Origin: Branchiostoma lanceolatum
Taxonomy: Eukaryota > Chordata > Leptocardii > Amphioxiformes > Branchiostomatidae
Assembly: GCF_035083965.1 (NCBI RefSeq)
Contig: NC_089738.1
Span: 19,747,234 to 19,811,233 of the forward strand
Direction of reading: 5' to 3'
Length of the DNA stretch: 64,000 nt
The notes under the pieces are model-generated. The model was given only the letters and a program-made list of their open reading frames with translations, was not told the origin of the DNA and did no database searches. A program made the translations under genes and the position numbers. The first letter of the stretch is position 1; every line of letters begins with the position of its first letter. This document shows positions 16,451-55,400 of the stretch, piece by piece.

Positions 16451-19357
16451 TCAAACTACAGTCTCCATTTCAACGACGTCATGTGGAAGCAGTGCACGTC
16501 TTAGTTGCACCAGCCTCTCTTCTATCCCTTCTGGAGTCGGTCTGGTATCTGGAACGTCGCGCCAACACGACCTCATCAGTCCGTACAGGTCCTCTGGACA
16601 TCCCGGCGGCCTCTCCATCCGTTTTCCTTGCCTCAGGATCCCGACCATCTGAAGAAAGCTAAGCTGCATCCTGCCATCGTAGCATGGATCTTTCCCCAGT
16701 GTGGCGATCTCCCACAGCAGCACGCCGAAGGACCAGACGTCACTCTGACAGGTGTATTCGCCGTTCTCGATGGACTCCAGCGCCATCCACTTCAGCGGAA
16801 GGAATTCGTCAGCGCCTGGACGGTTGCATCGGACATACTGAGTGGTGGCGTAGACATCTCTGGCCAGTCCAAAGTCAGCTAACTTGGCCATGTCATCGGC
16901 AGTGATGAGGACGTTGCGAGCGGCCACGTCACGATGGGCGATTCTCAGGCGTTCCAGCTCTTGAAGAGCTCGTGCTATGTGGACTGCGTATCCAAGAAGG
17001 TTCCCGAGTAAGCCTTCCTCATGGATGTTTCCTAGTCGGCGTAAGAAACCCAAGAGATCGCCTTTCGGGGCATATTCCAGAAGAATGTACTTCTCCGCAG
17101 ACTTGGTGATGAGCCCAACAAGTCGAACAATGTTAGACTCACGACAGTCGCCATCTCGTTGTTGGTGCACAGCTACCAAAATGGCTGCTTCTCTGTAGAA
17201 GTCTCGATAGGACTGTGAGTCCTCGACGCGAACTGTCTTGGCGGCCACGGCGAGCTTTCCTTGAGGCGTGAGCAGTTGCCCTTTTCTGACAAGCCCGAAC
17301 ATCCCTTCTCCTATTAGGGGACCAGGAGTAAGCTGGCGGATCTTCTTCTCCCAGCGTCGCAGCCAGCCCGGCTGTAGGCTCTGCGCTAGATCCTGCTCCA
17401 TTCTCCTCAGCTCGAAAAGTATCTTGTCCTCCTCGCCTGTGTCGGGCACAGAGCAAGCCAGGATACCCGTTTTGTAGAGTATTGCCATCACTATGGCAAT
17501 AAGTAAGACTAAGGAGCCTAGTGGGAGCAGGCTTTCGAGCGGCGGTTCATCTGTGCTTGTCGGCCATTGGTCACATTTCTGTCCCGTCCATGGCGTCACG
17601 CATGCGCAGCTGCCGTCCACGTTGTTACATGTAGCATTGTTCCGACAGTCACAGACCTGCAGACATAGCATACCGAATTTCCCGTTCATACACGGTTTGC
17701 TACAATCCTTTCCGTACCATCCGTCGGTGCAGTCGCACTTCCCGTCGCTAGGGCTACAACTCGCACCATTTTGACAGCTACAGTTCATTGCACAGTCTAT
17801 ACCGTAGGTGCCATTGGAACATATTGTCTGACACCTGGTTTCTGTCCATCCCGGCGGACAGACACAACCAGCCCAACGGTCACAGCTGGCACCTTGTAGG
17901 CAATCACACCATTGGTTGGCACCATTGAGCACAAACGTGGTGTTGAGTGTTCTTCCCCGGGTGTCTCGGACCTGGCAGGTGTAGGGTCCACTGTCGGTAG
18001 GTTGTATGTTGAGAACCTCAAAGTCAATCTCACTCACACCAAAGCTGACTTTCTCTGTCGCATTTGGATATCTTACCGACATGCGTCCAACGTCGACATG
18101 GTGTGCCTTGCAATGAAACTTGATGTTTGCGGAAGTGTAAATATCACGAGGATCGCTAGGTGTCGTCGTGATGGAGACGTCCTGTTTGGGAATGTCACAG
18201 GCCACACCTTTCCAGCCGGGCGGACATTTGCAGGCGCCGTTCAACCCGTGACAGCGGGCGCCGTTCTTACAGATACAGTTTCTATGACAATGAAAGCCAT
18301 ATTTTCCAACTGGGCAGCCCACTGGCTTTATGTTTATGTCAATATATTCGATTAATCCTGATATGGCGATGGAATTATCTCTAATCGTAAAATTTATGTC
18401 TGGTGGCACTTTGCAAGAAAATGATCCTGTTTTTGTTGTAGGAAATGACCAGGACCACATCACGATGATGTTGAGATCTCTGTTTTCAACGATGTATTGA
18501 GGAACATACTTTTTTAAGGGGTCAAGGGCTGTTGTGCCCTCCCACCACTTGAGATGATACAGATCTATAACACTGCTAGATGGTATGGAATCAGACGTGC
18601 ACGTCAGTTGGTTAATATCCTTATCCAACAGTTGTTGCAGTGTTGTCTGAACATCGGGGTTTGTGTCGAACGAAACTATACGGACGCTACAATCGCTGTT
18701 GTCTGTTTGAACCTTCCATTCGGCAGGGGTTCTTATTTTCCAGAGGTCAGAGGTGTTACTATACTCCTGACTACCGATTAAAATGTCTCCACTTTCGGTC
18801 ACTACTTCCCCACTCAGCTCTAATCGGAATAACAAATCTCCCGGCTCACCTTTTGGCTTAATCGGAGTTTCACACGTCTCGTTATACACAGGAGGATAGT
18901 CCTCAACGTCACTCAACTCTACCTTAACGCTCGCGTTGTGAACTCCGCTGCGGATTGTGAGCAGATATGCCGGCTGTACTGACCAGTCCAGCGGGTTGGC
19001 GACCACAATAGTGCAGTTCTTCGTCACATTAAAGCGGCCGTGCGGATCTCCCTCCATTTTGGCACACGGAAGTTCCGCTTTTTGTCCAGTCGTTGGTTGT
19101 TGTGACGGGCTGAAAATGTTCTCATCGACAGCGACGTTTTCTGGTGCGGAAACGCTGAACTCCTGGGCCCGAGCAGAACAAAGAAGCCGGACAGATACAA
19201 CCCAGAAACCTTGTTTGCGCGACAGGCTGAGAATGGTCTCCCCAACAGCGACGTTTTCTGGTACGGAAACGCTGAAATTTGGACTCCTAGTTGAGACGCC
19301 AAAGCAAAATTGCAAGCAGCATGCTACAACAAGTAATGCCTGAAAACCTGTTGCCAT
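16451..19357 (-). CDS. Receptor tyrosine kinase with EGF and Ig domains, copy 1 (intronless)
   Basis: One uninterrupted frame of 968 codons from the ATG at 19357, chosen because a signal peptide starts there (MATGFQALLVVACCLQFC); the frame is open 31 codons further upstream. Order: signal peptide; FSVSVPENVAVGETIL; a second, duplicated FSVSAPENVAV segment preceded by a signal-like stretch; a unique extracellular region; an EGF/laminin-type module (CPVGKYGFHC...CPPGWKG); an Ig-like domain ending YTCQVRDTRGR; three more EGF modules; a TM segment (LGSLVLLIAIVMAILY); and a kinase domain. Kinase landmarks are IGEGMFGLVRK, AVAAKTV, HRDVAARN, DFGLARD, LPLKWMALESI and SDVWSFGVLLWEI. HRDVAARN replaces the usual HRDLAARN. 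The C-lobe spelling RMERPPGCPEDLY resembles the FGFR/RET/Tie group. The ligand is unknown. An almost identical inverted copy lies at 21542-24376. Confidence 0.9.
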   Translation of the reverse strand: MATGFQALLVVACCLQFCFGVSTRSPNFSVSVPENVAVGETILSLSRKQGFWVVSVRLLCSARAQEFSVSAPENVAVDENIFSPSQQPTTGQKAELPCAKMEGDPHGRFNVTKNCTIVVANPLDWSVQPAYLLTIRSGVHNASVKVELSDVEDYPPVYNETCETPIKPKGEPGDLLFRLELSGEVVTESGDILIGSQEYSNTSDLWKIRTPAEWKVQTDNSDCSVRIVSFDTNPDVQTTLQQLLDKDINQLTCTSDSIPSSSVIDLYHLKWWEGTTALDPLKKYVPQYIVENRDLNIIVMWSWSFPTTKTGSFSCKVPPDINFTIRDNSIAISGLIEYIDINIKPVGCPVGKYGFHCHRNCICKNGARCHGLNGACKCPPGWKGVACDIPKQDVSITTTPSDPRDIYTSANIKFHCKAHHVDVGRMSVRYPNATEKVSFGVSEIDFEVLNIQPTDSGPYTCQVRDTRGRTLNTTFVLNGANQWCDCLQGASCDRWAGCVCPPGWTETRCQTICSNGTYGIDCAMNCSCQNGASCSPSDGKCDCTDGWYGKDCSKPCMNGKFGMLCLQVCDCRNNATCNNVDGSCACVTPWTGQKCDQWPTSTDEPPLESLLPLGSLVLLIAIVMAILYKTGILACSVPDTGEEDKILFELRRMEQDLAQSLQPGWLRRWEKKIRQLTPGPLIGEGMFGLVRKGQLLTPQGKLAVAAKTVRVEDSQSYRDFYREAAILVAVHQQRDGDCRESNIVRLVGLITKSAEKYILLEYAPKGDLLGFLRRLGNIHEEGLLGNLLGYAVHIARALQELERLRIAHRDVAARNVLITADDMAKLADFGLARDVYATTQYVRCNRPGADEFLPLKWMALESIENGEYTCQSDVWSFGVLLWEIATLGKDPCYDGRMQLSFLQMVGILRQGKRMERPPGCPEDLYGLMRSCWRDVPDTRPTPEGIEERLVQLRRALLPHDVVEMETVV

Positions 19358-19494
19358 ATTTTTGACAGCGTTTTCCTCCTCTATATCAACTGGAAGTTTG
19401 GCTGCTAGAATATCTGAGCGACTTCTCCAAACGGTCGTGTTCTTATACACATGGAGTGCGGAACTACTATTTAAGTTGAAATAATCATTAACAG

Positions 19495-19875
19495 ATGTAT
19501 ATTCATAATACAGAGAGGTTTACAATACAGTTCCTCAATACGTCCTGCATAAGTCACAACAGCCGTGCTGAAGTGTTGTATAACTGACTCTGAAGTTGAT
19601 TGCAAAACTTCTTTTTTTAAATCTACAATGCAGAGAGGTTTACTATACAGTTCCTCAGTGAGTCCTGTATACATCACAATGTAAGACGCAATTGAACTGA
19701 AGTGCTGTAGAAGTGACCCTGAAGATGTTTGTGAAACCCTTTTTTTTTATTTACAATACGGAGAGCGATACTTTACAGTTCCTCAGTGGGTCTTGTATAA
19801 ATCACGATGTAGGACACGGTCGTGCTGAAGTACTGTATAACTGACTCTGATATTGTTTGCGAAACTTTAAACAAC
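19495..19875. repeat. Tandem repeat upstream of RTK copy 1, ~125-bp unit, three copies
   Basis: The word TACAGTTCCTCA(A/G)T(G/A)(A/C/G)GTC recurs at about 19526, 19646 and 19776, followed each time by CTGAAGTnnTGTA and GTGACTCTGA-like sequence and a T tract. It lies just 5' of the kinase gene on the minus strand, where the promoter or 5' UTR would be. Confidence 0.75.
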
Positions 19876-20703
19876 TTCTCTTTCACATGAAACGTACTAC
19901 CAGAGGCCACATACTGTTTGTTCCGTCACAGATATCACAAATGGGGGCAGGTCCACACACCTTACAGTGTTTTGGGAAGTAAATTTGATCATAAATGGGC
20001 AGGTTTACACAGGAAGTATTTCGGGAGAAAAAATTGTACCTTTTGAAACACAGAGAAGGAACCTTTGCATATACCCTCCATATCTAGTAGTTTCATAGAA
20101 TAGAGTTGGAATTTGGACGCGGAAGCCCTTTAGAACGTGCCTGTTTACACAAAATGTACACTCCCGAATTCGTAAGGGAGATCCCCCGCGAAAGGCAGCG
20201 ACATGTGACGTCAGTCGTTTTTTAATCCAATGTTGTAATTGGCGGAAGCGGAGGTATCTTTACTGACCTGCGAAGCATAACACGTCTGTCCACATATTGT
20301 ATGTAGACGATAGAAAATGATATTAAAGGCAACCAAAGCAATATAAGGGCCAAAAAAATGGAAATGAAAAATTGCTGAAATCTTTATGGTAGTGACATTT
20401 ACTAACATTGTTTAGCACATTTGCGTAATAACTTCACACTTTTAGGATTTTAAAACCACGCAAGATCGTACCGTACGATGATCCCCTTAGTTTCACGAGC
20501 CTATTTAAACTCCGGCCACTATTTTCACATCACAACAACGTCGTATTTTTGCATCATGGACGTTGCTTTACATTGTGGTAGTGTTGTTTGAACTAACCAT
20601 GTATAGAAATGACTAAATGAATTAACTTTCAAAATTCGATTTTTCGAACCCTAAAACTGCTTGGGTTGTCAATTTTTGTCTTGCTTGAGTTGCCCTCAGA
20701 GAA

Positions 20704-21470: not shown

Positions 21471-21541
21471 CGGAATGAAAACCAGTGTCGTCACCACTGT
21501 GGTCTGTTTTCAACACTTAAGATACAAGTGAAGATAAAAAT

Positions 21542-24376
21542 ATGGCAGAAAACTTAAAGGATTGGCTTGTTGTAGGTTTCTGGGTTTTTGTCCTACTTCT
21601 GTATCCTGCTCGGGCCCAGGAGTTCAGCGTTTCTGCACCAGAAAACGTCGCTGTTGGGGAGACAATTTTCAGCCCGTCGCGCCTACCAGGGACCCGGGCT
21701 GGACAAAAAGCGGAACTTCCGTGTGCCAAAATGGAGGGAGACCCGTACGGCCGCTTTGACGTGACGGAAAACTGCACTATTGTGGTCGCCAACCCCCTGG
21801 ACTGGTCAGTACAGCCGGCATATCTGCTGAAATTCCGCAGCGGAGTTCACAACACGAGTGTTAAGGTAGAGTTGAGTGACGTTAAGGGCTATCCTCCTGT
21901 GTATAACGAGACGTGTGAAACTCCGGTCAACACTAATGGTGAGACGGGAGATTCTCTACTTAGTTTTACGTTAAGCGGGGAAGTTGTGACCGCAACCGGA
22001 GAGGTTTTCTCAAGCAGTCAGACAAACACCAAAGTCGATGACGCTACAAAATATCCTCCTTGGATGACCCACACAGACAACAGCGACTGTAACATTCGCA
22101 TCATTTGGCACACCATCTACGTTCCTAGCTTGGAAACTTTAATAGATCTATGGGACGGAGGATTCCGTCAGCTCACATGTACTGCTGGTTCTCATCTACC
22201 CAATGTTTCCATACACTTGCACAGGCCCAACAAATACGACGAGTCAAAACTTGCTTACTTAAGAAAATTTGTTCCGAACTCTGTCCTACACAACTCATTC
22301 ATGAATTTTTTCTTAATGTTTTCCTGGATATTTCCTACAACAAAGGAAGCGTCGTATAGCTGTGAAGTTCCAAGTGTCCCAATCAGATTAAAAGATATCG
22401 TAAAGGTTGATTCAGACTTTCAGCCAAAGGCAAGGGTTGAATATCTGGACATACGAATAAAACCAGTGGGCTGCCCAGTTGGAAAATACGGCTTCCTCTG
22501 CGACAAAACTTGCATCTGTAAGAACGGCGCCCGCTGCCACGGATTTAACGGTGCCTGCAAATGTCCGCCCGGCTGGAAAGGTGCGGCCTGTGACATTCCA
22601 AAACAGGACGTCTCCGTCACGACGACACCTAGCGACCCTCGCCACATCTACATTTCCGCAAATGTCAAGTTTCATTGCAAGGCGCACCATGTCGACGTTG
22701 GGTACATGTCAATTATACTTCCAAATGGGACAGAGAAAGTCAGCTTTGGTATAAATGAGATTGACTTTGAGGTTCAGGACATAGAACCAACCAGCAACGG
22801 ACCCTACACCTGCCAGGTCCGAGACACCCGGGGAAACACACTCAACACCAAGTTTGTGCTCAATGTTATCAACTGTGCTCCAGACAGAAAAGGTGCCCGG
22901 TGTGATGTAGTGTGTGATTGCCTACAAGGTGCCAGCTGTGACCGCTGGGCTGGTTGTGTCTGTCCGCCAGGATGGACAGGAACCAGGTGTCAGACAAAAT
23001 GTTCCCATGGCACGTACGGTAAAAACTGTGAGAGGAACTGTAGCTGTCAAAATGGTGCAACCTGTGGCCCTAGCGACGGAAAGTGTGACTGCACTGACGG
23101 ATGGTACGGAAAGGATTGTAGCAAACCCTGTAAAGACAGCAAGTTTGGTATGTTATGTCAGTGGGATTGTGCTTGTAAGAACAATGCTACATGTAACAAC
23201 GTGGACGGCAGCTGCGCATGCGTGACGCCTTGGACAGGGCGGAACTGCGACCAATGGCAGACAAGCACAGATGAACCGCTGCTCGAGAGCCTGGTCCCAC
23301 TGGCCTCCTTAGTCTTACTTGTTGCCATAGTGATGGCAATACTCTACAAAACGGGCATTCTGGCTTGCTCCGTGCCCGACACAAGCGAGGAGGACAAGAT
23401 ACTTTTCGAGCTGAGGAGAATGGAGCAGGATCTAGCGCAGAGCCTACAGCCGGGCTGGCTGCGACGCTGGGAGAAGAAGATCCGCCATCTTACTCCTGGT
23501 CCCCTGATAGGAGAAGGGATGTTCGGGCTTGTCAGAAAGGCACAACTGCGCACACCTGAGGGAGAACTCGCCGTGGCCGCCAAGACAGTTCGCGTCGAGG
23601 ACTCACAGTCCTATCGAGACTTCTACAGAGAAGCAGCCATTTTGGTAGCTGTGCACCAACAACGAGATGGCGACTGTCGTGAGTCCAACATTGTTCGACT
23701 TGTTGGGCTCATCACCAAGTCTGCGGAGAAGTACATTCTTCTGGAATATGCCCCAAACGGCGATCTCTTGGGTTTCCTTCGCCGGCGAATAGGGGACATC
23801 AATGAGAAAGCCCTACTGGGAAACCTTCTTGGATACGCAATCCACATAGCACGAGCTCTTCAAGAACTAGAACGCTTGAGAATCGCCCATCGTGACGTGG
23901 CCGCTCGCAACGTCCTCATCACTGCCGATGACGTGGCCAAGTTGGCTGACTTTGGACTGGCCAGAGATGTCTACGCCACCACTCAGTATGTCCGATGCAA
24001 CCGTCCAGGCGTTGACGAACTCCTTCCGCTGAAGTGGATGGCGCTGGAGTCCATCGAGACTGGCGAGTACACCTGTCAGAGTGACGTCTGGTCCTTCGGC
24101 GTGCTGCTGTGGGAGATCGCCGCGCTGGGAAAAGATCCGTGCTATGATGATGGCAGGATTCAGCTGAGTTTTCTTCAGATGGTCGGGATTCTGAGGCAAG
24201 GAAAACGGATGGAGAGGCCGCCGGGATGTCCAGAGGACCTGTACCGACTGATGAGGTCGTGTTGGCGCGACGATCCAGATACCAGACCGACTCCAGAAGG
24301 GATTGAAGAGAGGCTGCTGCAACTGAGACGTGCACTGCTTCCACATGACGTCATTGAAATGGAGACTGTCGTTTAG
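21542..24376 (+). CDS. Receptor tyrosine kinase with EGF and Ig domains, copy 2 (intronless)
   Basis: One uninterrupted frame of 944 residues from an ATG followed by a signal peptide (VVGFWVFVLLLYPARAQ). Approximate residues: FSVSAPENVAVGETIF 30-45; EGF-like module 311-352; Ig-like domain 360-443 (FHCKAHH...YTCQVRD); three EGF modules 443-570; TM 583-608; kinase 645-925. The glycine loop (IGEGMFGLVRK), lysine (AVAAKTV), HRDVAARN, DFGLARD and SDVWSFGVLLWEI are all intact, so the kinase should be active. Activation-loop tyrosines (DVYATTQYVRC) are the likely autophosphorylation sites. It differs from copy 1 mainly outside the kinase and TM regions. The N-terminal segment duplicated in copy 1 is single here. 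No introns, unlike typical chordate RTKs. Confidence 0.92.
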   Translation: MAENLKDWLVVGFWVFVLLLYPARAQEFSVSAPENVAVGETIFSPSRLPGTRAGQKAELPCAKMEGDPYGRFDVTENCTIVVANPLDWSVQPAYLLKFRSGVHNTSVKVELSDVKGYPPVYNETCETPVNTNGETGDSLLSFTLSGEVVTATGEVFSSSQTNTKVDDATKYPPWMTHTDNSDCNIRIIWHTIYVPSLETLIDLWDGGFRQLTCTAGSHLPNVSIHLHRPNKYDESKLAYLRKFVPNSVLHNSFMNFFLMFSWIFPTTKEASYSCEVPSVPIRLKDIVKVDSDFQPKARVEYLDIRIKPVGCPVGKYGFLCDKTCICKNGARCHGFNGACKCPPGWKGAACDIPKQDVSVTTTPSDPRHIYISANVKFHCKAHHVDVGYMSIILPNGTEKVSFGINEIDFEVQDIEPTSNGPYTCQVRDTRGNTLNTKFVLNVINCAPDRKGARCDVVCDCLQGASCDRWAGCVCPPGWTGTRCQTKCSHGTYGKNCERNCSCQNGATCGPSDGKCDCTDGWYGKDCSKPCKDSKFGMLCQWDCACKNNATCNNVDGSCACVTPWTGRNCDQWQTSTDEPLLESLVPLASLVLLVAIVMAILYKTGILACSVPDTSEEDKILFELRRMEQDLAQSLQPGWLRRWEKKIRHLTPGPLIGEGMFGLVRKAQLRTPEGELAVAAKTVRVEDSQSYRDFYREAAILVAVHQQRDGDCRESNIVRLVGLITKSAEKYILLEYAPNGDLLGFLRRRIGDINEKALLGNLLGYAIHIARALQELERLRIAHRDVAARNVLITADDVAKLADFGLARDVYATTQYVRCNRPGVDELLPLKWMALESIETGEYTCQSDVWSFGVLLWEIAALGKDPCYDDGRIQLSFLQMVGILRQGKRMERPPGCPEDLYRLMRSCWRDDPDTRPTPEGIEERLLQLRRALLPHDVIEMETVV

Positions 24377-28020: not shown

Positions 28021-28511
28021 AGACCAAGGGCACATTCATCAGATTCTGACATGCCGCCGTTTAAGAGCCAGATGCCGCAGACTCTCTGCCGTTTCCCGCC
28101 GACATGCCCAGAAATACCGCCGGCACGTATTCAGTCTTCAGTCCGGTTAATGATTCCTACCACAGGTACATGCCGCGTGCTCCCGGGTTAAACTACATGC
28201 CGGGCACGGTGTGCAAACATCACACCAGCACGTTAGATATGGAACTTTGGTCTAGTGTCCTTCCTGGCAACAGTACGCAAACAAACAGTAGGTTCGACGT
28301 ATATCTGTGTTGGTAGGATTCAATCTGAAGCAGGACCGAACTTGTAATTCCCAGCCGCGTGGAAAAATTGGACATACTTGTGCAAAAATTGAAGCCCAGG
28401 TTTCGGTAAAGTCTGCGGGGAAGAAGCTGACTTTGACCCATCGGTGTGCAGCCGGGTTATCGAACCGAAAAAATGACTTCGGCGGTCGCAAACTTCATAA
28501 CCTAAACCAAA

Positions 28512-28834
28512 AAGGAAAGAAAGGAAAGGGATCTCGAACCAGTTTAGCTCAAATGAACTCAATGAACAGATGAGCTACTCTTCCACTTGTTGTGACAGAG
28601 AAAACAGACGCAATGTACAGTATTTACAGGTTCATTGTACCGCGGAAAATCCCCTAGCTCCTTTCGACAAGCACAATGAACAGTGGACCACGGCTTAACG
28701 TCCCGTCCTAAGGACTGCGACCCTTTCCGGTAGCGTGCATGTCGGGTGAGCGACACAGCCGGGATCGAACCCGGGGCTTCTAAGTTCTAGTTCCAGAGGC
28801 AAGATCGCTAACCACTGGACTACGCACGCTACGC
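28512..28834 (-). mobile_element. Full-length tRNA-derived SINE with target duplication
   Basis: On the minus strand the head reads GTAGTCCAGTGGTTAGCGA (A box) and GGGTTCGATCCCGG (B box). A body of about 200 bp follows, and a CCTTTCCTTTCTTTCC tail. AAACCAAA flanks it at 28504-28511 and 28835-28842. It is the same family as the element forming a TLR intron at 47142-47483. Confidence 0.88.
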
Positions 28835-28842
28835 AAACCAAA

Positions 28843-31800
28843 GATATGGAAGTACGCAACTCATACGGTCTTGAATATACACATAAGTGTGAACGGGCCG
28901 TTAGCCAAACATGTTGTACACAAGCAACTTTTTAGTATTTTCCAATAAGTTGTCCGGCATTAGATTGCTGTTCAGCCACTTGGTCAGAAAATTACCGAGG
29001 AGCGTTAGAATTTTAGATGAACTCGGAGGCGGGCATACGATGCTTCTAGATAGAATCGTCATGGGTCGTATGAAGCTAAACATCAATGATTAGTCCAGCA
29101 ATCAACAAGACCTGTGCGTATTACAATACACTTGTGGAAGGGGGGCATAGTGGTAGAACTAATTTCGAAAAACTAAAAATATTTCAAAAGTACCTTTCAG
29201 TTTCTCAACAAATTCCCGCGTAATCAAAATCTCCTCTACACCAAGCACCGACATCCCAGATCGTCATGGTGGTTCCACATATTTTTCTCACCCCAACAAG
29301 TTCTTACAGGGCGTTAATAGGAGCTGAAGTAACAGTTTAGTTGGCGGTAACTAATTTCAGACCTTGGACCCGATACACAAATATCACCCGATAAAATACT
29401 CGTCACTAGGCAAGGGGAGCGCGGCGACTTAAAATGACGGGGGTACCACAAGAGGCTCAGTAAATTAAACGCTTTGAGGAAACAAACTCTCTGGTCTCAG
29501 GCAACTAGACAAACACTGTCGCCTCGCTATTTCACTTATAAAAACACCATTTCCCCGTTTTCTCCTGTTTAAGGAGTAGAATTAAGACTTAGAAAAACTA
29601 GCCAAGTGCCTGAGGCGACTACTTCAAACACTTTATATAGCGTAGATAAAACAGTCGCGGCAAAAGTTAACAGCATGTGCACGTCTGTAGTATCAGGGTT
29701 ACAACGTTCTTCTGCGCAATGTGTGACCACCTATGATATACTGTAAGTTATAACAGTTATCAATTAGTCGTCGGTACAATATCTAAAAAATATATATATA
29801 TTACCTGTGATCTAGGAATATTGCCACGCGAAGTTGTGAGAACTTATGGAGGATGTTCTGCCCAACTTAAAATGAGTACCTATCTTCGGTTAGGGACGTC
29901 CTCTCAGATGGGGCGTAAAGCCGGAGGCCCCTTGTTTGAGGATAGCAACACCTCGAACACGTTAAAGAACTCGTCAAAAAGTTATACTCGTCAAAAAGTT
30001 ATCAAAACGACCAGGGGTTCGTCTATGTGAGTGGATCAAACCTTACAGTCCGGTCTTACGCAGCTTGTACCTACTGCACAAAACTACTGCGAACCAAACA
30101 AACAAATATGACCTGGTGCCGAGGCCGTCCCTTCTCCCGGTAGGGCCAAGGGCACCCGGGCGGGCCGCAGACGCTGTGTCGCCGCCGCCAGGGCCGGGAG
30201 AGTCCGCGGCGTCCGGTCCATGCGTCACGGCAAACGTCGCGGGGAGAGTCCAGTGGTTAGCAACGCTGCTTCTTAACCCGAGGGCTGGAATCCCAGCTGT
30301 TGCCGCTCTCCCGACTTGCTCAGGGCTGGGGAGGGTCGCGGTGCTGAGGCTGACGTCACACTCACAGCGAACTTTGGCCGAGTTTGTTGATCGTCAGAAA
30401 GTTGCCTGATTCCAATGTCGCCAGAGGGTTGTGCCTACTTTTGCCTGTAAATCAACCCTCTTACATTAGACGGCCGGGCCTAAAAATTACACCTTGGACG
30501 GGTTCCGTTGATTATTTATACACATCACACTGCGTCCTAGTCACAAATCCCGTGTTTTTGTAGTTAAGTAAAGAACCGTTTCATTAAGTTTGCTTTCTAA
30601 ACCGGTCCGGCGCCTTCGTAAGACAGAAAAACAACAGTTTATCCGCCGTAATCCCTGCGCTGTTTCCCTCTCTGCTTCAACTGGACCAACAGGACAAGGA
30701 AGGTGCACAGGGATGGTGACGTCACAGGGATGGTTACGTCGCAGAGATGGTGACGTCACATGACGATGACGTCTAGGATGGTGACGTCAGAGAACAGTGT
30801 CCAGTAAGACTTGCGCTACAACCTTTACATTGACCGATTGACACGTACTGCTCTCCTTCGTTGACTTGACTTGACATATAGAACAAAACCCCAACCGTCC
30901 TGATTGGTAGAGTGACACGTTTACTACTAGTGCATTAACGTTCGATTGAACACTGAAAAGATCTAAAAAGAGTGCCTGTTTGGGGAGGGGACCTGGCAAC
31001 ACTTGTCAACACTTAACGGTAAATTTAGGAGACCCAGTAAGACTTAACGGTTTATTTAGGAAGACGGCAACGCATGAGAACATTGACGCACTTTTCTGTA
31101 CGCGCCACGCTCGAGTTGGGTAAGTTAATGCTATTGTGTGGGCCTTACACCTTAAAGAAAACAGTTCGCCAGTACCGACTGGAAGGTTTCAAATTTTGAT
31201 CAAGCAGTACGTCAAGCCAAGGAGGTTTTCACAATCTTGATAAAAATCTCCTTGCCCTAAACTAACCCATTGTCGCACGCGCCCGGTGTCACCCGACACC
31301 CTGTTGCTTTCTGGCGAGAACAATGGCCGCACCCACAACACAACAGCGCCACCTGTAACCCCTGACCCCTCCCACACACAACACCCCCAGCTGTGACCTC
31401 CGACCTCCTCCACCCGGACCCGTTGCCATGGTGACCAGGTCGTGCCCCATCCGTGACCAGTGTCGGACACAGGACCAGTGCCGGACATAGGTCCCGTATT
31501 TACGGTAAATATCGGAACGCAGAAACCGCGAGACGACAGACACCTGTGCGAGTCGGATCGGTCCTGCTGTTACGTCAACAGGGAAAGTGTTTGGAATGTA
31601 TCCAGTTCCCCTGCTACACCCGCGGGTTGTTACAGGTGGATACTTTTGTAGCAGTTTGAAGAGGGATGGGGGGGGGGGGGCACAAATACCTTATTTTCAT
31701 ATGGTTACGCTGAATGACAAAAGCAAGGGACGGAAACAGGCTTATGAATTTTCACTTATCAATAAAGGTTTTTCCTTAGAAGAGGTCTAACATCATTGAG

Positions 31801-43500: not shown

Positions 43501-46500
43501 ACCACAAGACGTCATCATGCAGCTACAAACAGGCCAAGTAAGGCAACAAAAACAGGTGAGGGAAGCTTTCCTCCAAGATTAAAATTGTATTGCGCATCTA
43601 TATCGTAACGGATAGAATTTAAGGTACATTACTTAGCTCTTTCATACAGTAAATATAATATCTACACTATCTTATTTATAGGGAACAGGAACTACAAAAT
43701 AAAGTAACAGAATGATCAGAATGCACAGGAGACGTTGTGCACATTAAATGCTTTTGTCTGAAATAATACAGTCTCGCTTGCGTAGACGATAGAGTCAAGA
43801 GTGCCTGTTGCATGTATTTATATTGGCCTAGATTCAAAATCTTTGCACTGTCTTGTCTTGGTTAAGATGATGTACTAGGTTTTACAAGACTAGTGATGAT
43901 TTTAATTAGATTGTGTCTTTCTTTCAATATCGGTAGAACATGTCAATAGAATTTGTCAGTGTTCATAGAAAAGATCATAATACATGTTAATATGTCAAAA
44001 TCCTCAAATGTTACAGAATCGGATATACATGATTGTACATGTACCGTGAGGTAACACTGGGTAACCACACATTCATGCTAAACATGACCAGAAGGAATAT
44101 ACCTTTTAAGTCAAATTCTAAGTCAGGCTTCTGAGTCAAATCATGTGGACTACTGTCTAGTTCCTTTGACCTTCTAGCAGGTACCAGACACAAAATTATC
44201 CTGTTTCAGTTCCAGTTCTGGTTTCACAATTTCTACCTGACAAGTTGTCGAAAATTTGACCTGCAATTTGACAGACCTGTCGGCAAGGACCCAGGGCTTA
44301 ATTAACAGTGGCTCTGTTTGAATTTAGCATAATTTTTCTTGAAGTTTGAACCTTTATCTATTCACGATAAGCTCAAATGTGCTTGCAGGCCGCTTCTCAT
44401 TGAGGCCATGAGGGAAGAGTTACATGTAACTTGAAATTAAAGGGTCAGACAAAATATAACAGAGATAAGGATTACATTTACATGTATTTGAATTTTAAGT
44501 CCTAATTAACAACATAGCATGCTAAACACAGAAGACATTGGCACAACTGCTTTTGTCATTATTTTGACTTCCTCTACCCGTGCTCCCCCAGGCTATGCTG
44601 ACCCTACTGGAAGTGGCCTGTAGGCTGGTCACCGTGGTGATTCTCCTGATGACTGAAGCCTTGTCGGGTGAGCAGGAACCGGGGCCACATCAAAGGCACC
44701 CAGAGCATTTTATGAGGCTTGAAAACTGGAAATATTCTAGTTGCTGTAATCTTTATGAAATTGACATTTGATGCCACTGTTTACCACATTTGCTTGCGGA
44801 TTTCATATCAAAAGTGCTCAAACCCGGCACAAAAATAAGCTACATGGTGATCTTTTACTTTAAAGCGCCTAGTGTAAATAGACCGATACCATAGCTCCAC
44901 ATAGGACCCCTGAAGCCAAAAGGAAAAGAGGCCGTCCATACTCCACACTTACGAGCATAAAGTGGAAAAGTACTGACAGAAATGATGTGTAACCGAGAAT
45001 ACTGGAAGCAGAACTTTGTAGACGTGTCAACTCGTTAGAGTATGATTATGTATGTGTGTGTGTGTATGTATAATATAATTCAAGAATGTTTACTGTCGTT
45101 GTTTATTGTTTATGACCCTCCAGGCTGTGTTGTTCACCACCGGACTGCGGACTGCAGGTACAGCGGACTCCAGGAGGTCCCCGCCCACCTTCCGCCGGAC
45201 GTCACACACCTGGACCTGAGTGGGAACCACCTGTCCTCCCTCCCCAACCTGACCTTCTCTCACCTGCCTCACCTGCTCTGGCTCGACCTCAGCTCAAACG
45301 TGATTGACGACCTTGAACCTGACGCTTTCGCAAATTTGACCTTGCTGCGGGTGTTGTCTCTCCATGACAACCGACTCAGATCCCTTCCAACCTCCGTCTT
45401 CCGACCGCTTCCAGCGCTCCACTCACTCCAGCTGTCGGGGAACTGGGAACTCTGGAACGTCTTAGCCCCCTTGAACCAAGACATCTGGAAGGACCTGAAC
45501 CTGGAACTTCTTGACCTGTCAGGCAACTCCCTCGAGTCGGCTGCGTTCCCTGACACGTTTTCCGCCATGAAGTCACTGAAGAAGCTTTATCTGTCCGGGA
45601 ATCAAATCCAGTCTTTCTCCAAGACCGACTTTGCTCCGTTCGAAGGACAAGATTTTCAAACTCTTGATCTGTCTCTGAATCCAACGTCTCGAGTCGAGCC
45701 CGGCTTCTTCCAGCTGTTCAAGAGTGTGGATGACCTTGACCTCTCCCAGCTTGACCTCTCACTGTCCGACCTTCAGGGCATCTTTGCCGACCTTGCAGGC
45801 TTGAACTTGACCCGGCTGAAGATGAACGACTTTGAGTTCTCCCCCTCTGTCTTCTCCGCCCTCCGCCCAGACACGTTCGAAAACCTTGCCGGCGCGCCTC
45901 TCCAACGTCTCGGGCTGAGCTCATCCGCAGTCCAAGACATCTCGGACCACTCCTTCCGTGACCTGGCCGAGCTGGTGACCCTTGACCTCTCCCTGAACTC
46001 CCTGTCCCGGCTGCCCCGGCAGGCCTTCAGCGGGCTGCCCAAGCTGCAGGTTCTGGTCTTGAGCTCCAACCCCTTTGAACAGGTCTGGCCATTATTGACT
46101 GATACATATTAGTAGAAAAGGTTTATTTATTGCTAAAACAACATAGCAAGTTAGTACATAGCAGTCAATTGGCTGAATTGCGTATTTCCTGTACAGGTCG
46201 CATTTAAAAACTAGCCATTTACTGTTTATAAATATAATAAATTTTCATTGGTTGAGAGAGATACATCATAATTCTAAAAGACAATTAAGCACAGATCCGC
46301 ACATGTAACGGCAGTGAACTTTAATCCGACGCAACCTTAATCCAACACTTTTCAGTACTCCCCTGTAAGAAAAGACCTAGCACTGATATGCAAAATCTTT
46401 TGACACTCGGAAGACTGCTTCATATGCAGTGATGACTGGAGAAGCGCTACACAATAATGCTACAGTTACAGAAATACTCACAAGGCCGCTTGTTGACTTA

Positions 46501-49500
46501 CGATTCCGCGCTACATTTGCTCAAAAGTGTCGGATTAAGGTTCAGTGCCGTTAATGATAATGCTTATAATATAGAAAGTATGATTTCAAATATTCTTTTG
46601 ACAATGTATCATCAAAAATGATTGCAATTTAGAAATGAATACTAGGAAATGCAAATGAAGTCTAGAAAACTTGAAAAAAGTCTTTGAATGATCTGTTATT
46701 AACATAACATAACATAGTGTTATTAAAATAAGTTTGAAATAAGTAGTACTTTCATGAAACCTTTATGTAGCCTACAGCGTAATTCTGTCATGAAGTTCCT
46801 AAAGGCTGTTGTTTGTAAACAGTTGTTGTTTGTTTGTAAATAATGATTCAGAATAGATAACCGTTCCTCATCAGGTGCCCGGAGAAGTCCTAGCTGCCGT
46901 GTCGCCCACCCTTGAGACGCTAGAACTCAACGACGTTCCCGTCGACGAGATTCACGCTGGGGATTTCGGGAGCCTTCCGAGGCTGACGCACCTCTCGATG
47001 TCGGGCCTACTCAACGGGCGGCTGCAGGAGCTGTCTCCACGCTGCTTCCAGGGTCTACCCGGTCTCACCGTGCTGAACCTGCAGCAGAACCGACTGGTCG
47101 GGCTTCCCGACGGCGTCTTCTCCGGGCTACATAACCTCCAGGTTAGCGTAGCGTAGTGACACTGTGTAGTCCAGTGGTTAGCTATAGCGATCTTGCCTCT
47201 GGAACTAGAAGTCCCGGGTTAGAACACGGCTGTGTCGCTCACCTGACATGCGCGCTACCGGAAAGGGTCACAGTCCTTGGAACGGGACGTTAAGCCGTGG
47301 TCCACTGTTCATTGTGCTTGTCGAAAAGAGCTAGGGGAATTTCCCCGGTACAATGAACCTGTAAATACTGTATATAGCGTCTGTCTTCTCTGTCATGACC
47401 AGTGGAAGAGTAGCTCATCTGTTCATTGAGTTCATTTGAGCTAAGATGCTTCGAGATCACTTTCCTTTCCTTTCTTTTTCCAGGTCCTCCTTCTCAAGGA
47501 GAACAGGATCGCACAGCTCCAGGAGACGTCCTTTTCCGACCTTCCCAACCTGCGAGTCTTAGACCTGTCCGCTAACAATCTCTTGGCCAGTTTGCCCGAG
47601 CGTATTTTCCACCCGCTAAAAAGCCTCGAAGAGCTGAGACTCAACGAAAATTCTTTTTCAAATTTCTTTGGCGCCGTCAAGCTTAACGGCCTCGGCAAGC
47701 TTAGGCGGATGAACCTTACGTCCAACAACTTAGGTTTGCTCCCAATCTTTGACCCAGTCTCGACTCTTGAAGTGTTAGATCTTTCTGACAACCAGGTGTT
47801 CAACGAGAAAGTCACCTACGTTTCGGAGAGGCCCTTTCGAAACTTGTCCAACCTGGTGTACCTGAGTTTAAGTAAGAACCGACTGGAAGTCATACAAAAG
47901 ACCGACACTAGTAGGTTCTTCGAAGGTTTGGGGTCCCTGGAAGTTCTGAAGATGTCCCAAACTGGGGATCCTTGGAAATCTTTTGGCAACACTACCATAT
48001 TCTACGCCTTGCTTGCCTTGAGAGTGCTTGATCTGAGCTCTAGTGGGATCGCCGCACTCCCCAGAAAAGCTTTCCAGGTTCACAGCCAATTGGAGGGCCT
48101 CGATCTGTCCAACAACGAGATCCTCTCATTGCCTGATCAGCTTTTCCCTCCCACTCCGACATCCTTACGAGACCTCAGCCTCAGAAGTAACCGGATATCG
48201 GTCCTGCCGGAGACCAGGTACAACTACTTCGTACGAGGACTCGAGATCTTGGACCTGCGGGAGAACTTCTTCCAGTGCGACTGCGATATCCAGTGGTTCA
48301 TCACATGGGCTAACTCCAGTGGGGTGGTGCAGGGGTGGGAGGGGGGCGCCTACACGTGCAGCAGCCCATCCAGCCTGCGCAACAAACCCTTGAGCAGCTA
48401 CAACCCGGACTGCATGACCTACACCAGCCTCTACGCCTGCATCGTGACCACTTCGCTGATTTCCCTCTACATCCTGACCTGCTTCACTGTCCACAAGTAC
48501 GGCTGGTGGTTCAGTTACGTGTTTTACGTGGCAGGGAGAGCGTTCAGACGCCGCGAGGTAGCCAGGAACCCCGCGCGGAGGTTCCGATACGACGCTTTCG
48601 TCGCCTACAGCAGCCGCGACGAGCGGTGGGTCACGGAGGAACTCGTACGCAATCTTGAGAATGAAGTCCCGAGTTACCGTCTTTGTATCGGCGCTCGCGA
48701 TTTTGTCGGAGGTGTGGCGATAACGGAAAACATCGCAAGGAGCGTGGACGCCAGTCGGAAGACGATCTGCGTCGTCACACACAACTTTGTGCAGAGCAGC
48801 TGGTGTAACTACGAGCTGCAGGCCTCGGAGGGGAGGTACTGGTTTGCTGTTTTTGGTTTTTGTTTAGGCCATGTTGATACGATTATAATTTATATGGAAT
48901 GACTGAATGAACTTTTATCTATGTTATTTGCAATGAGCCTACGGGTAGGAATTTGCAATCAACTTATTTCCTGTAATTCTTTTTTCTTTCACTGTAATTT
49001 AGGTTCACTGTTTTCACTGTCACCTCTGGACTGTGAACTTATCATCCCAGTGAAAAACCAATTTATGATTCCTCCACACATCCTTTCTGTAAATCACTTG
49101 CTGCCATCGTGAAGTTAAAGTTTAGTGAAAATGTCAATTTTTCTTACACCGTGAAATTTTGCTACCGTGAACTTAAAGTGAATTACAGTATCTTTATTCA
49201 GTAGGTAGACAAGAAACAATTTTTGACGTTCTGTGTCTGTAGGTACCACATGTTTGACCCGTGGCGCTCGAACCTGGTTCTCGTGTTCCTGGAGAGGGTT
49301 CCGGACCGCGTCGTGGCGCGACACAAGCAGCTGCGGACCGTGGTGGAGCGTGACACGTACCTCGTGTGGCCGCGGGACAAGCGCCGCGGGTCGCTGTTCT
49401 GGGCGCGGCTGAGAGACGCTCTGGGGGAGCCGATGGATCAGAACGACCAGCTGGATCTGGATCTTATCGAAGAAGACTTTGTCTAACAAAAACTAGAATT

Positions 49501-52234
49501 CTAATCTCAGATGTCTTTTGTGCTATGAATGTCAAAGGAAACAGATCGAACCAGAGACCTCAGAGAGTGATCTCAGAGAACCAAGTTTCTGTCAAGTCCA
49601 GGGCTGTCTCCAGCTTTATTCTTTTTCCTTTCTATTGTTGTTTGGGGGCCCATGTTGTTAATCTTTGCTGTTAAATCTGTCAATCTAAGGTAACAAAAAT
49701 ACCTTTTTATCAATTTCATGTCATAGATAAGGTAACATTTTTCTTTGTCCCATCAAGCAAATTTCCGTCCATAAACAGAGGGACGGGCCCTGAAGACAGG
49801 CCTGGTCAAGTCATGGATTCGGCCTGAAGGTGCAATTCTGAACTGATTAGAATTTAGATTCAACACTCCAGACATTAAGACTTCCTGACTTGAGACTCAC
49901 CCTGGAAGAGCGCGACGGACCTGGACACGCAGAGCAGCCCGTAGAGGACCGAGATCCCGATGGCGACCCAGTTCGACGCGATCGTGTAGTGCTGCCGTTT
50001 TCTCTCCGTCAGCGTGAAGTGGTAAAGTTTCTGCAAGGTTTAGAAATATATATGTTATACTAAATGTTCTAAAAATAAATATATAGTTATCAGGGCTCTG
50101 ATATGGACAGGTAGAGGCTGTTTTCTCTTCGTCAAAGAGAAGACTTCAAGTGGTTCAAGTATCTGAGGCAGAGAAAATAAATGTCAGCCAGTTTATGAAT
50201 GAAAAAACACCTGGTATCACAGTGATGTTTGCTTACCTGGAATGTGGCCAGGGTTACGACAACACACAGCACTACATCACCACCCTCACCCCAGGACCCC
50301 CAGGGCTCTCCCCACCACCCCAGGGCTCTCCCCCACCCCAGGGATTACAGTGATGTGTGCTTACCTGAAACGAGGCCAGGGTGACGGCAGCACACAGGCA
50401 GATCAGAGGGTACACCGGGAACAAGAACCGCTCCTCCTGAGAGTGGTAGGGAACAGGGATGGTTCAGCACAAACTTACAGCATCATCTTACTACTTAAAG
50501 AAGGGTCACATTGACCCCACAAACTTTGAAGCTCTCTGCAACGATTGCAGCACCTGGCGTCAGCTGAGCTACAACGGCGTCACAACTTTTGAAGCTGAGA
50601 GGATAGCAGCCGCTGAGGCCAAGAGGACTAGGAAAGCCCGGCTGCAACAGAACTGATGAACTGAAATGACACTATGTAGATTCGCCCTACTCCCTCGAGT
50701 GGCTGTCAACACAGCATCAGTACAACTTACACTAAGCTCACATAAGGTATGCACAAATAAGCACAACAGGCTGGTGCAGGGTATCATAAACTTACAGTAG
50801 ACATTTTCTAAAAGCTAGGAGTCAGCCAGTCAGGAATGAATGAATGAGTGAGTGAATGAAATAAGAGTACCTTGTGAAGAAGACGAGGACCCAGATGTAG
50901 AGAGAAGACAGGGTGGAGTGAGTGAATGAGTGAGTGAGTGAGTGTGAGTGAGTGAGTGAGTGAATGAGTGAGTGAGTGAGTGTGAGTGAGTGAGTGAGTG
51001 AGTGAGTGAGTGAGTGAGTGAGTCTGTGTGTGAGTGAGTGAGTGGGTGTGAGTGAGTGAGTGAATGAGTGAGTGAGTCTGTGTGTGAGTGAGTGAGTGGG
51101 TGAGTGAGAGAATGAGTGAGTGAGTGAGTGAGTGAGTGGGTGAGAGAGTGAGTGAGAGAATGAGTGAGAGAGTGAATGGGTGAAAGAAGAGTACCTTGTG
51201 CGGCCTAGTGAGTGTACCCAGATGTAGAGCGGAGACAGGGTGGAGTGAGTGAGAGTGTGAAAGAAGAGTACCTTGTGCGGCCTAGTGAAGAAGATGAGGA
51301 CCCAGATGTAGAGAGAAGACAGGGTGGAGTGAGTGAGTGAGTGAGTGAGTGAGTGAGTGAGTGAGTGAGTGAGTGAGAGAGTGAGTGAGTGAGTGAGTGA
51401 GTGAGTGAAAGAAGAGTACCTTGTGTGGCCTAGTGAAGAAGATGAGTACCCAGATGTAGAGCGGAGACAGGGTGGAGTGAGTGGGAGAGTGAGCGAGTGA
51501 ATGAATAATTGAGTGAGTGAGTGAAAGAAGAGTACCTTGTGCGGCCGTGTGAAGAAGATGAGGACCCAGATGTAGAGCGGAGACAGGGTTTGGAGTGAAT
51601 GAATGAGTGAGTGAGTGAGAGAGTGAGTGAGTGAGTGAGTGAGTGAGTGAGTGAGTGAGTGAGTGAGTGAGCGAGCGAGTGAATGAATGAGTGAGTGAGT
51701 GAAGAGTACCTTGTGCGGCCTAGTGAAGAAGATGAGTACCCAGATGTAGAGCGGAGACAGGGTGTAGAGCAGCTGGTGCGTTGGGACGTAGCCCGGCGAT
51801 CGCTGCTTCAGCATGTTGTCAACAAACAGCTGGAAAACAAACGAGAACAACATTTTTAGCACAACATTTTTGCAATTGAAAAAATCTTCCAACGAACACA
51901 AAGAGGAACACATTTTTTTCAGCCTGTTTTTCTTTCCTGTAGTACATATATATATACATATGTCTTGTAGATTCTACACAAATAATCATCACAGTTCATC
52001 TGTATTGGGAATTTTTGTGTGGGACAAAACGACATGGAAACTTACCCCCAGCGGCATGGCCACCAGCCCCATAAGGAACATGTATGTGTGTGACTGTGTG
52101 GGCGTGCATGTGTGTGTGTTTGTTCGCGTACATGTGTGCACATGTGTGTGAGTTTATGTGTGTGTGCATGTGTAGGTGTAAGTAAGTGTGTGAGTGACTC
52201 ACCCCCAGCGGCATGGCCACCAGCCCCATCAGGA

Positions 52235-52279
<45 letters not shown>

Positions 52280-52369
52280 GGTGTGCATGTGTGTGCGAGT
52301 GTGTGTGCACATGTGTGTGAGTGACTCACCCCCAGCGGCATGGCCACCAGCCCCATCAGGAACATGTGT

Positions 52370-52447
<78 letters not shown>

Positions 52448-55400
52448 CTGTGTGGCCGTGCATGTGTGTGCGAGTGTGTGTGCACATGTGTGTGAGTGAC
52501 TCACCCCCAGCGGCATGGCCACCAGCCCCATCAGGAAAACGATGTTGAAGTTGAGGAAGCCGTTTAGGAAGTAGAACGTCCACGGCTCCACACCTGCAGA
52601 TAAACAACACAACATGTAAACAACACAACATGTAAACAACACAACATGTAAACAACACAACATGTAAACAACACAACATGTAAACAACACAACATGTAAA
52701 CAACACAACATGTAAACAACACAACATGTAAACAACACAACAAACATTATGTACCAGCATGGCTCCACAGCTACAAAGTAAAAAACACACCAAAGTCATT
52801 GTTTGTAAAAACATCGAAATCAAACACTAAGACATAAACTAGGCAAATTTGGCTCTCAAACCATCAACTCAACATCCCTGATGTACATCAGGGTGCACCA
52901 ACCTTTTCTTAACCGGGACGGGTGGCGCTATAGACTTCCAACAACTTTTGACCCATTGCCTATGTCACACAATGTGCGACAAGTCATGTGTCCAGAGCAA
53001 TTGGTCAGAGAACTTACGAAGACTGAGTGATTCAGTCAATTTCCGGTGAGTTCAATACTTTGAGTTGGAGAAAGTTCAACCTTCCCAAAACTCAACATCG
53101 CTTGACAACTTGCACTACCGGTAGTTCATGTGTCTTACCGTATATATCCGGCCCGTGGTCGCTGAACACGTTGTACAGGACGATGTTGAGAGGAGCGATG
53201 ACCAGCTTCCCGTAGTACATCGTGTCCACCATCACTAGCGGGACCTGGGACAGAGGAGATGTACTGCTTTTCTCCAAATATCATCATATTTAAGCTATTT
53301 GAGTGACATTTGCATTCGATCCTTACGAGTTAGGGACAACATGTTAAACAAGTTTTTCCAGTTACAATGTTGATCTGTTCTGTCAGTTCATCAAAGTGAC
53401 GCTGAACAAGAGTGATGGATGTTACGCGAAACGTCCAGAAATAAATCTCCGAATTTTTATCCAGTTGTAGAGTTTGTAAAGCTATGTGAGAGAGTGAGTG
53501 AGTGTAGAGTCTGAATTGTCTTTATACACATTTAAGCTATTCACCATAATCCTATGTACCATAGCTATTGAGTTCGTTATTGTTGAAGACTTAAAGCCAG
53601 CTGTAAAGTAAACAATTTTGCTTTGAAAACTTCCCAAACTATAAGTTGTGCTACAGAAAAAAGGGTGAACGTGAGATTCTGATGGATGAATAATGTGGGA
53701 AATAGTAGTACAGTACATGCTTCTATGCCATCATAGATAGATTTCACATGTTTCTGAAGCAGAAGAAAATCATTCTGACTTACCAGCACGAGACACAAGG
53801 AGATGATGACCCACTGGCAGAACAGAGCCATGCGCTGTCTTCTCAACACCAGGTCTACGGCTATGGGGATGCTGGGGGGAGGGGGGCGGTAAAGGTCGTT
53901 AGTTCTCAACACCAGGTCTACAGCTATGGGGATGCTGGGGGAGGGGGGCGGTAAAGGTCGTTAGTTCTCAACACCAGGTCTACGGCTATGGGGATGCTGG
54001 GGGAGGGGGGCGGTAAAGGTCGTTAGTTCTCAACACCAGGTCTACAGCTATGGGGATGCTGGGGGGAGGGGGGCGGTAAAGGTCGTTAGTTCTCAACACC
54101 AGGTCTACGGCTATGGGGATGCTGGGGGGAGGGGGGCGGTAAAGGTCGTTAGTTCTCAACACCAGGTCTACAGCTATGGGGATGCTGGGGGGAGGGGGGC
54201 GGTAAAGGTCGTTAGTTCTCAACACCAGGTCTACGGCTATGGGGATGCTGGGGGAGGGGGGCGGTAAAGGTCGTTAGTTCTCAACACCAGGTCTACAGCT
54301 ATGGGGATGCTGGGGGGAGGGGGGCGGTAAAGGTCGTTAGTTCTCAACACCAGGTCTATGGCTATGGGGATGCTGGGGGGAGGGGGGCGGTAAAGGTCGT
54401 TAGTTCTCAACACCAGGTCTACAGCTATGGGGATGCTGGGGGGAGGGGGGCGGTAAAGGTCGTTAGTTCTCAACACCAGGTCTACAGCTATGGGGATGCT
54501 GGGGGGAGGGGGGCGGTAAAGGTCGTTAGTTCTCAACACCAGGTCTATGGCTATGGGGATGCTGGGGGGAGGGGGGCGGTAAAGGTCGTTAGTTCTCAAC
54601 ACCAGGTCTACAGCTATGGGGATGCTGGGGGGAGGGGGGCAGTAAAGGTCGTTAGTTCTCAACACCAGGTCTACAGCTATGGGGATGCTGGGGGGAGGGG
54701 GGCGGTAAAGGTCGTTAGTTCTCAACACCAGGTCTATGGCTATGGGGATGCTGGGGGGAGGGGGGCGGTAAAGGTCGTTAGTTCTCAACACCAGGTCTAC
54801 AGCTATGGGGATGCTGGGGGGAGGGGGGCGGTAAAGGTCGTTAGTTCTCAACACCAGGTCTATGGCTATGGGGATGCTGGGGGAGGGGGGCGGTAAAGGT
54901 CGTTAGTTCTCAACACCAGGTCTACAGCTATGGGGATGCTGGGGGGAGGGGGGCGGTAAAGGTCGTTAGTTCTCAACACCAGGTCGACGGCTATGGGGAT
55001 GCTTGGTGGGTAAAGTAGAACAACAATGTAAAACATTTTGCCTAAAGATTCATCTCTATTTTCCCTCTAAAGTTCTCTATGAAATACACAGCTGGTAAGC
55101 TGTCCAAAATAGTACTGTAACTGTTATGGTTCATACCAATATCAAAAGCACCATGAATTGATATTGATAAGACCCAGAACTGCTCTTACCCGAGAGCCCC
55201 AGCAAACGGCCAGCCCACAATCGCACTCACCGCTATACTGAAAATGGCCACCTGGAAAAAATATCGAGAAATACATTTGAGAGGAAAAAAAATCAGACAA
55301 GATATTGCATTGTACAGAGAGTAAAAATATGAAGGTGAAAGTACAGAAGTGAAAGTACAGAAGTGAAAGTACTGACCCCGTCGTAATGTGTCCACCATGC

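Follow-up and report, generated by a model that had tools for sequence, protein, structure and literature searches.

Animals rarely gain introns, and the traces of how a gained intron arose have usually been lost; the insertion of a transposable element as a ready-made intron has long been proposed and has seldom been caught. Intron 3 of a Toll-like receptor (TLR) gene in the lancelet Branchiostoma lanceolatum raises the question of whether a coding exon can preserve a legible record of such an event. The window, by which we mean the whole stretch of DNA analyzed here, comprises 64,000 nucleotides (contig NC_089738.1, positions 19,747,234 to 19,811,233), and all coordinates below refer to it. 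The original prediction was that the insertion of a SINE had made a new intron in this gene. The composition of the intron, its splice sites, its tail and the leucine-rich repeat (LRR) frame around it support that view at the level of sequence: a SINE very probably entered an AG|GT site, was intron-like at once and became intron 3.

We rebuilt the TLR gene by eye and with a script. The model covers 44595-49486 on the plus strand and has five exons, four introns and an intact frame of 964 residues. The joined coding sequence of 2,895 bases (965 codons) contains a sole stop, which is terminal. The exons are as follows.

Exon 1, 44595-44667, plus strand: start codon, signal-peptide-like by eye, with a GTGAGC donor.
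Exon 2, 45124-46082, plus strand: leucine-rich repeats (PF13855 LRR_8, E 6.6e-52).
Exon 3, 46875-47141, plus strand: leucine-rich repeats by pattern, with CTCCAG at its 3' end.
Exon 4, 47484-48835, plus strand: LRRs, a transmembrane stretch and the first part of TIR (PF01582 TIR, E 4.5e-15).
Exon 5, 49243-49486, plus strand: remainder of TIR by frame continuity, and the stop codon.

The Pfam run covered exons 2 and 4 only, and exon 4 matched both LRR_8 and TIR. The transmembrane stretch was called by eye and from an alignment with TLR3, and the best solved relatives of the exon 4 product were TLR3 chains (E 2.1e-46). With an LRR ectodomain, a transmembrane segment and TIR predicted in a single open reading frame, the gene is, by its domains, a Toll-like receptor.

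Intron 3 and its parts lie in the following order.

Left TCCAGGT target-site duplication, 47137-47143, plus strand: contains the 5' splice site AG|GT.
Intron 3, 47142-47483, plus strand: 342 bp, phase 0, GT-AG.
SINE copy in intron 3, 47144-47479, plus strand: in sense to the TLR gene.
Tail of the SINE, 47460-47479, plus strand: pyrimidine-rich, candidate polypyrimidine tract.
Right TCCAGGT target-site duplication, 47479-47485, plus strand: contains the 3' splice site AG|GT; its first T is common with the SINE tail.

An intron born directly from an insertion is expected to equal the element plus one copy of the duplication, with the duplicated AGGT giving both splice sites and the frame being restored. 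Every base of intron 3 belongs either to the SINE or to one duplication copy. The intron had been described as the SINE and nothing else, and it does consist of 47144-47479 plus one copy of TCCAGGT. The predicted 7-bp duplication across both borders is present as well, at 47137-47143 and 47479-47485; its length is 6 to 7 bp, because the first T of the right copy is indistinguishable from the T tail. The junction from 47141 to 47484, and the numbering of the intron as the third, both hold in the rebuilt model. In sequence, the duplicated AGGT would supply both splice sites, and the frame would be restored.

Joining 47141 to 47484 places the LRR starts at residues 408, 432 and 456, a spacing of 24 residues on either side of the junction. 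The protein reads LQ|VLLLKEN across the junction, which follows residue 433, and no residue is gained or lost; this is what the AG|GT-duplication model requires. The exact 24-residue repeat bears out the claim that removing the element and one duplication restores the LRR frame. If intron 3 were retained, a stop would follow at codon 438, five codons past the junction.

The limits of the element can be read from a second copy elsewhere in the window.

Second SINE copy (copy 2), 28512-28834, minus strand.
Target-site duplication AAACCAAA of copy 2, one side, 28504-28511: 8 bp.
Target-site duplication AAACCAAA of copy 2, other side, 28835-28842: 8 bp.

This full copy had been taken as confirmation of the limits of the element, and it does support them, as it has its own 8-bp duplication and shares the start GCGTAGCG with the TLR copy. 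BLAST aligned the TLR SINE with the minus strand of 28826-28509 at 286 of 324 positions (88%, E 1e-118), and a global alignment of the copies gave 24 substitutions in 307 sites, with indels of 9, 6 and 7 bases. On this similarity, the two copies are clearly homologous, beyond chance. The BLAST match begins at element base 20 (47163), and for the first 19 element bases the correspondence between copies rests on GCGTAGCG. This 8-base element start occurs twice in the window when both strands are considered, at 47146 and at the 5' end of copy 2. Compared with copy 2, the TLR copy carries two additional bases, TA, at its 5' end ahead of GCGTAGCG, plus a 9-base stretch that is missing from copy 2. 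Both copies finish in a CTTTCC-type tail.

A SINE is expected to carry an internal pol III promoter and to occur as dispersed copies, each with its own duplication. Scored against approximate pol III box motifs, which serve for ranking only, the A box matched at 11/11 positions in both copies; the B box was perfect (11/11) in copy 2 and reached 9/11 in the TLR copy. The TLR copy is flanked by TCCAGGT and copy 2 by AAACCAAA. As to a tRNA-like head, ARAGORN found 0 tRNAs in the window, neither copy had an Rfam match with an E value of 1 or below, and what fits are the promoter boxes. Since neither program recognizes a tRNA, the label SINE is based on the promoter boxes, size, tail and duplications. 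Using blastn and nhmmer, we found only two full copies in the 64 kb, and one of the two is the intron. A weak match at 30246-30346 was not counted as a third copy, being under the inclusion threshold (nhmmer E 0.03) and covering part of the head only; it perhaps represents another SINE family with a related head.

We scored splice sites with approximate matrices, and the scores serve for ranking only. On this ranking the acceptor of intron 3 came top among the 4,093 AGs on the plus strand of the window, because the pyrimidine tail of the SINE forms its tract. When 20,000 random 11-mers were placed ahead of CCAGG, 0.075% matched the acceptor score of the tail, and the tail of copy 2 scored equally to that of the TLR copy. 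The proposal that the SINE tail acts as the polypyrimidine tract is thus supported to the extent that the tail could serve in this way. The donor, CAG|GTTAGC, ranked within the top 2.2% of 4,269 GTs on the plus strand and is only middling. Its CAG|GT comes from the target, and positions +3 to +6 (TAGC, with T at +3) come from the SINE. It had been claimed that one target AG|GT supplied both the 3' AG and the 5' GT; both dinucleotides are indeed derived from the target, but the 5' splice site as a whole is only partly so. The SINE adds nothing special to the donor, since random 4-mers placed behind CAGGT reach at least its score in 25% of cases; position +5 is G for both SINE copies. In antisense, the two copies would make better donors (7.5 and 3.9, versus 5.1 and 2.9 in sense) and poor acceptors (-0.9 and -0.4, versus 11.3 in sense). 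No full yTnAy branch site was found within 40 nt of the 3' splice site of intron 3; the candidates upstream of it are a partial ATCAC at 24 nt and TTCAT at 49 nt, the nearest full site.

According to our model, a SINE with a tRNA-type promoter would have inserted, by retrotransposition and in the sense direction, into the codon pair CAG|GTC (Leu-Gln|Val-Leu) within an LRR exon of the TLR gene. The empty site before insertion would have read as the continuous CTCCAGGTCCTC. Duplication of the target TCCAGGT would account for the AG|GT that is seen in the sequence at each end. The left AG|GT would act as the donor, completed by the first bases of the SINE (TAGC), and the right one as the acceptor, which the spliceosome would use behind the pyrimidine tail of the SINE itself. 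Splicing between the two AG|GT sites would return the exact coding sequence that preceded the insertion; because of this exact restoration, the insertion could have been tolerated and become intron 3. The model presumes that there was no earlier intron at this codon and that intron 3 is spliced efficiently. A tblastn search of the window (E up to 1e-3) for a TLR paralogue or an empty site returned only the gene's own exons and internal LRR similarity. In viral contigs, where an animal gene is hardly expected, a 20-mer of the SINE was found in 0 stretches, and the 11 pattern matches to the exon 4 protein included no relative.

Repeats at intron borders are common in the literature. Border repeats of at least 5 bp were reported in 26 of 100 conserved Drosophila introns (PMC3296678), and direct repeats were described at or near the borders of all 213 introns of another survey (PMC11782384). 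Because ordinary introns often carry border repeats, the TCCAGGT duplication by itself is weak evidence, and the rate of 26/100 (PMC3296678) led us to reject it as stand-alone proof. The case is carried instead by the coincidence of the duplication with the independently seen ends of the SINE. Among the junctions examined in the window, 3 of 9 had in-register border repeats of at least 5 bp: three of the four TLR introns and none of five candidates in a glycosyltransferase gene, whose junctions are by-eye models (five of six anchor pairs yielded candidates and one pair none). One of these candidates, 5180-5905, scores badly and may conceal a missed exon. The other repeat-bearing TLR introns, intron 2 (46083-46874) and intron 4 (48836-49242), both lie at AG|GT and have weak donors; their border repeats are CAGGT and AGGTAC, respectively. 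Intron 2 contains an element with 25-bp inverted repeats (46306-46553) and exceeds that element in size; no inverted repeat was found in intron 4. These two introns could, to judge from their borders, be older element-born introns; given the same base rate of 26/100 (PMC3296678), we do not claim that they were born from transposons.

That the duplication agrees with the splice borders by chance, through the splice consensus, and that intron 3 is an ordinary intron merely rich in SINE sequence, would be consistent with the finding that all three repeat-bearing junctions of the nine lie in the TLR gene, with the 213 of 213 introns that have repeats at or near their borders (PMC11782384) and with the position of the first 19 element bases outside the BLAST match to copy 2. 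We nevertheless consider it scarcely credible, as the element ends given by copy 2 meet both borders, within 2 bp on one side and within the T run on the other. An older intron at this codon, into which the SINE landed and of which the remainder was later deleted on both sides, has more to recommend it and is still very unlikely. The gene has other introns (1, 2 and 4), of which introns 2 (CAGGT) and 4 (AGGTAC) also bear border repeats, introns usually have CAG|GT at their borders, and border repeats of 5 bp are frequent (26/100; PMC3296678). However, two deletions would each have had to stop at a limit of the element, leaving in place a 6- to 7-bp duplication across the exon borders, and no other intron sequence is left in intron 3.

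It is also unlikely, if somewhat less so, that the insertion was disruptive and goes unspliced, the allele being a pseudogene or a deleterious haplotype. Splicing of intron 3 is predicted from sequence, and lancelets are described as very heterozygous, at 3.2-4.2% (PMC12500494), so that a young null haplotype could sit in an assembly. Against this stand the complete open reading frame on either side of intron 3 and the top-scoring acceptor. The B box, at 9/11 in the TLR copy versus 11/11 in copy 2, likewise suggests that the insertion is not new and has gathered mutations since. We also simulated the decay of a dead gene. With half of the copy-to-copy divergence assigned to the TLR copy, which speaks against a null allele, about 3.3 stops and 3.1 to 9.2 frameshifts were expected in the coding sequence, and 0 were observed. 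The joint chance of an intact dead gene was then 4e-6 to 0.0013, a range that comes from indel counting: of the three copy-to-copy indels (6, 7 and 9 bases) only one is a frameshift, and the simulation was run with both indel counts and with a frameshift share of either two thirds or one third. This chance was 0.0018 to 0.042 with a quarter share and 0.044 to 0.18 with a one-eighth share, so that the low-divergence settings do permit a null allele. The decay test favors a living gene, with weak support, and is indecisive if the TLR copy of the SINE is young. Birth of intron 3 from the SINE at an AG|GT site stays the reading that we prefer.

The mechanism is already in print, and TLR intron 3 is a new and unusually clean instance of it. 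The AGGT transposon-insertion model of intron gain was set out in a review, which tallies 35 transposon-insertion introns in Oryza, Drosophila, Oikopleura and Zea (PMC3443670). There, as here, a duplicated AGGT target yields both splice sites; the review presents a model, whereas the TLR locus fits it in sequence and has a SINE that would also give the pyrimidine tract. In rice catalase A, a SINE in the coding region is spliced as an intron (Iwamoto 1998, cited in PMC2394776). That precedent shares the coding SINE insertion with our case but concerns a plant gene, whereas the TLR gene is animal and has both borders in duplicated AG|GT. In human, four Alu-made introns have been described, all of them alternative and in 3'UTRs; in SS18L1, mutations within the Alu created the donor, and the exon contributed the acceptor (PMC2394776). 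These are also introns made by SINE insertion in an animal, but TLR intron 3 is coding and its removal would restore the frame exactly.

Doc is an autonomous non-LTR element. In the Doc1053 intron of Drosophila sechellia, a retrotransposon and its target duplication likewise gave a coding intron in an animal, but the right duplication lies 15 nt beyond the border and five residues were added (PMC3296678), whereas TLR intron 3 adds none. Introners were found in 175 of 3,325 genomes; their families range from 5 to more than 2,000 copies in a genome, and most fit DNA transposition. Within animals and land plants they were confined to two groups, both animal (PMC9860276). The words SINE and lancelet are absent from the main text of that survey. 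Introners resemble intron 3 in being element-born, some with both splice sites from the insertion site; they differ in forming many-copy families that mostly moved by DNA transposition, whereas the TLR locus offers one SINE-made intron. The original remark that such births are seldom seen in animals is therefore fair, but it needs these precedents beside it: Doc1053 (PMC3296678), the human Alu introns (PMC2394776) and the Introners (PMC9860276). Among the literature matches listed, judged by titles and abstract openings and with subscription journals mostly outside their scope, we recognized no coding intron born from a SINE in lancelets or any other chordates. What is unusual at the TLR locus is that a SINE, an animal coding exon and exact restoration occur together.

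The TLR locus still allows the source element, its target and the two splice sites to be read in a coding exon, with the protein unchanged, and the AG|GT-duplication model thereby becomes directly testable. The locus further suggests that introns can be seeded by a retrotransposed SINE, and not by DNA transposons alone. A bolder reading, which we hold to be doubtful, is that this SINE family is a retrotransposon-type Introner that has seeded many coding introns. Its tail, with equal acceptor scores in both copies, and its 5' end, with G at donor position +5, would turn a sense insertion into AG|GT into a working intron. Such insertions would often strike LRR genes, as CAG|GT can occur in the codons for Leu-Gln-Val-Leu. 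In the TLR protein LQVL occurs twice, coded with CAGGT both times, and the coding sequence has 15 AGGT sites.

Several other features of the window were recorded. The glycosyltransferase gene matched Pfam Glycos_transf_2, Glyco_transf_7C and, weakly, Ricin_B_lectin, and we take it to be a GalNAc-transferase. Within it, at 7052-7771, a 119-bp unit is repeated in tandem about six times, and every copy includes an acceptor-like site and an exon start (GAGAGGTTCGGTGACGTG...); these copies presumably resemble the exon-edge minisatellites described in amphioxus. The units of three more tandem arrays (3971-4506, 51359-51642 and 52040-52449) seem to include an exon piece and a splice site, a content that was judged by eye for the latter two; in the array at 3971-4506 the repeat extends into the acceptor used in the gene model. 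Arrays that seem to copy exon edges would fit amphioxus. Two long open reading frames lie head to head at 16451-19519 (minus strand) and 21521-24376 (plus strand), with tyrosine-kinase domains (PF07714, E 3.4e-65 and 2.5e-66, respectively). Both have below-cut-off Ig matches, joined in one of them by EGF-type matches, also below cut-off, and on their domain content they look like single-exon receptor kinases. Intron 1 of the TLR gene holds a 105-bp repeat (44689-44793) that is 74% identical to 20322-20424, between the two kinase frames. Finally, a 63-bp minisatellite occupies 53840-55003, with 18.5 copies and a 97% match.
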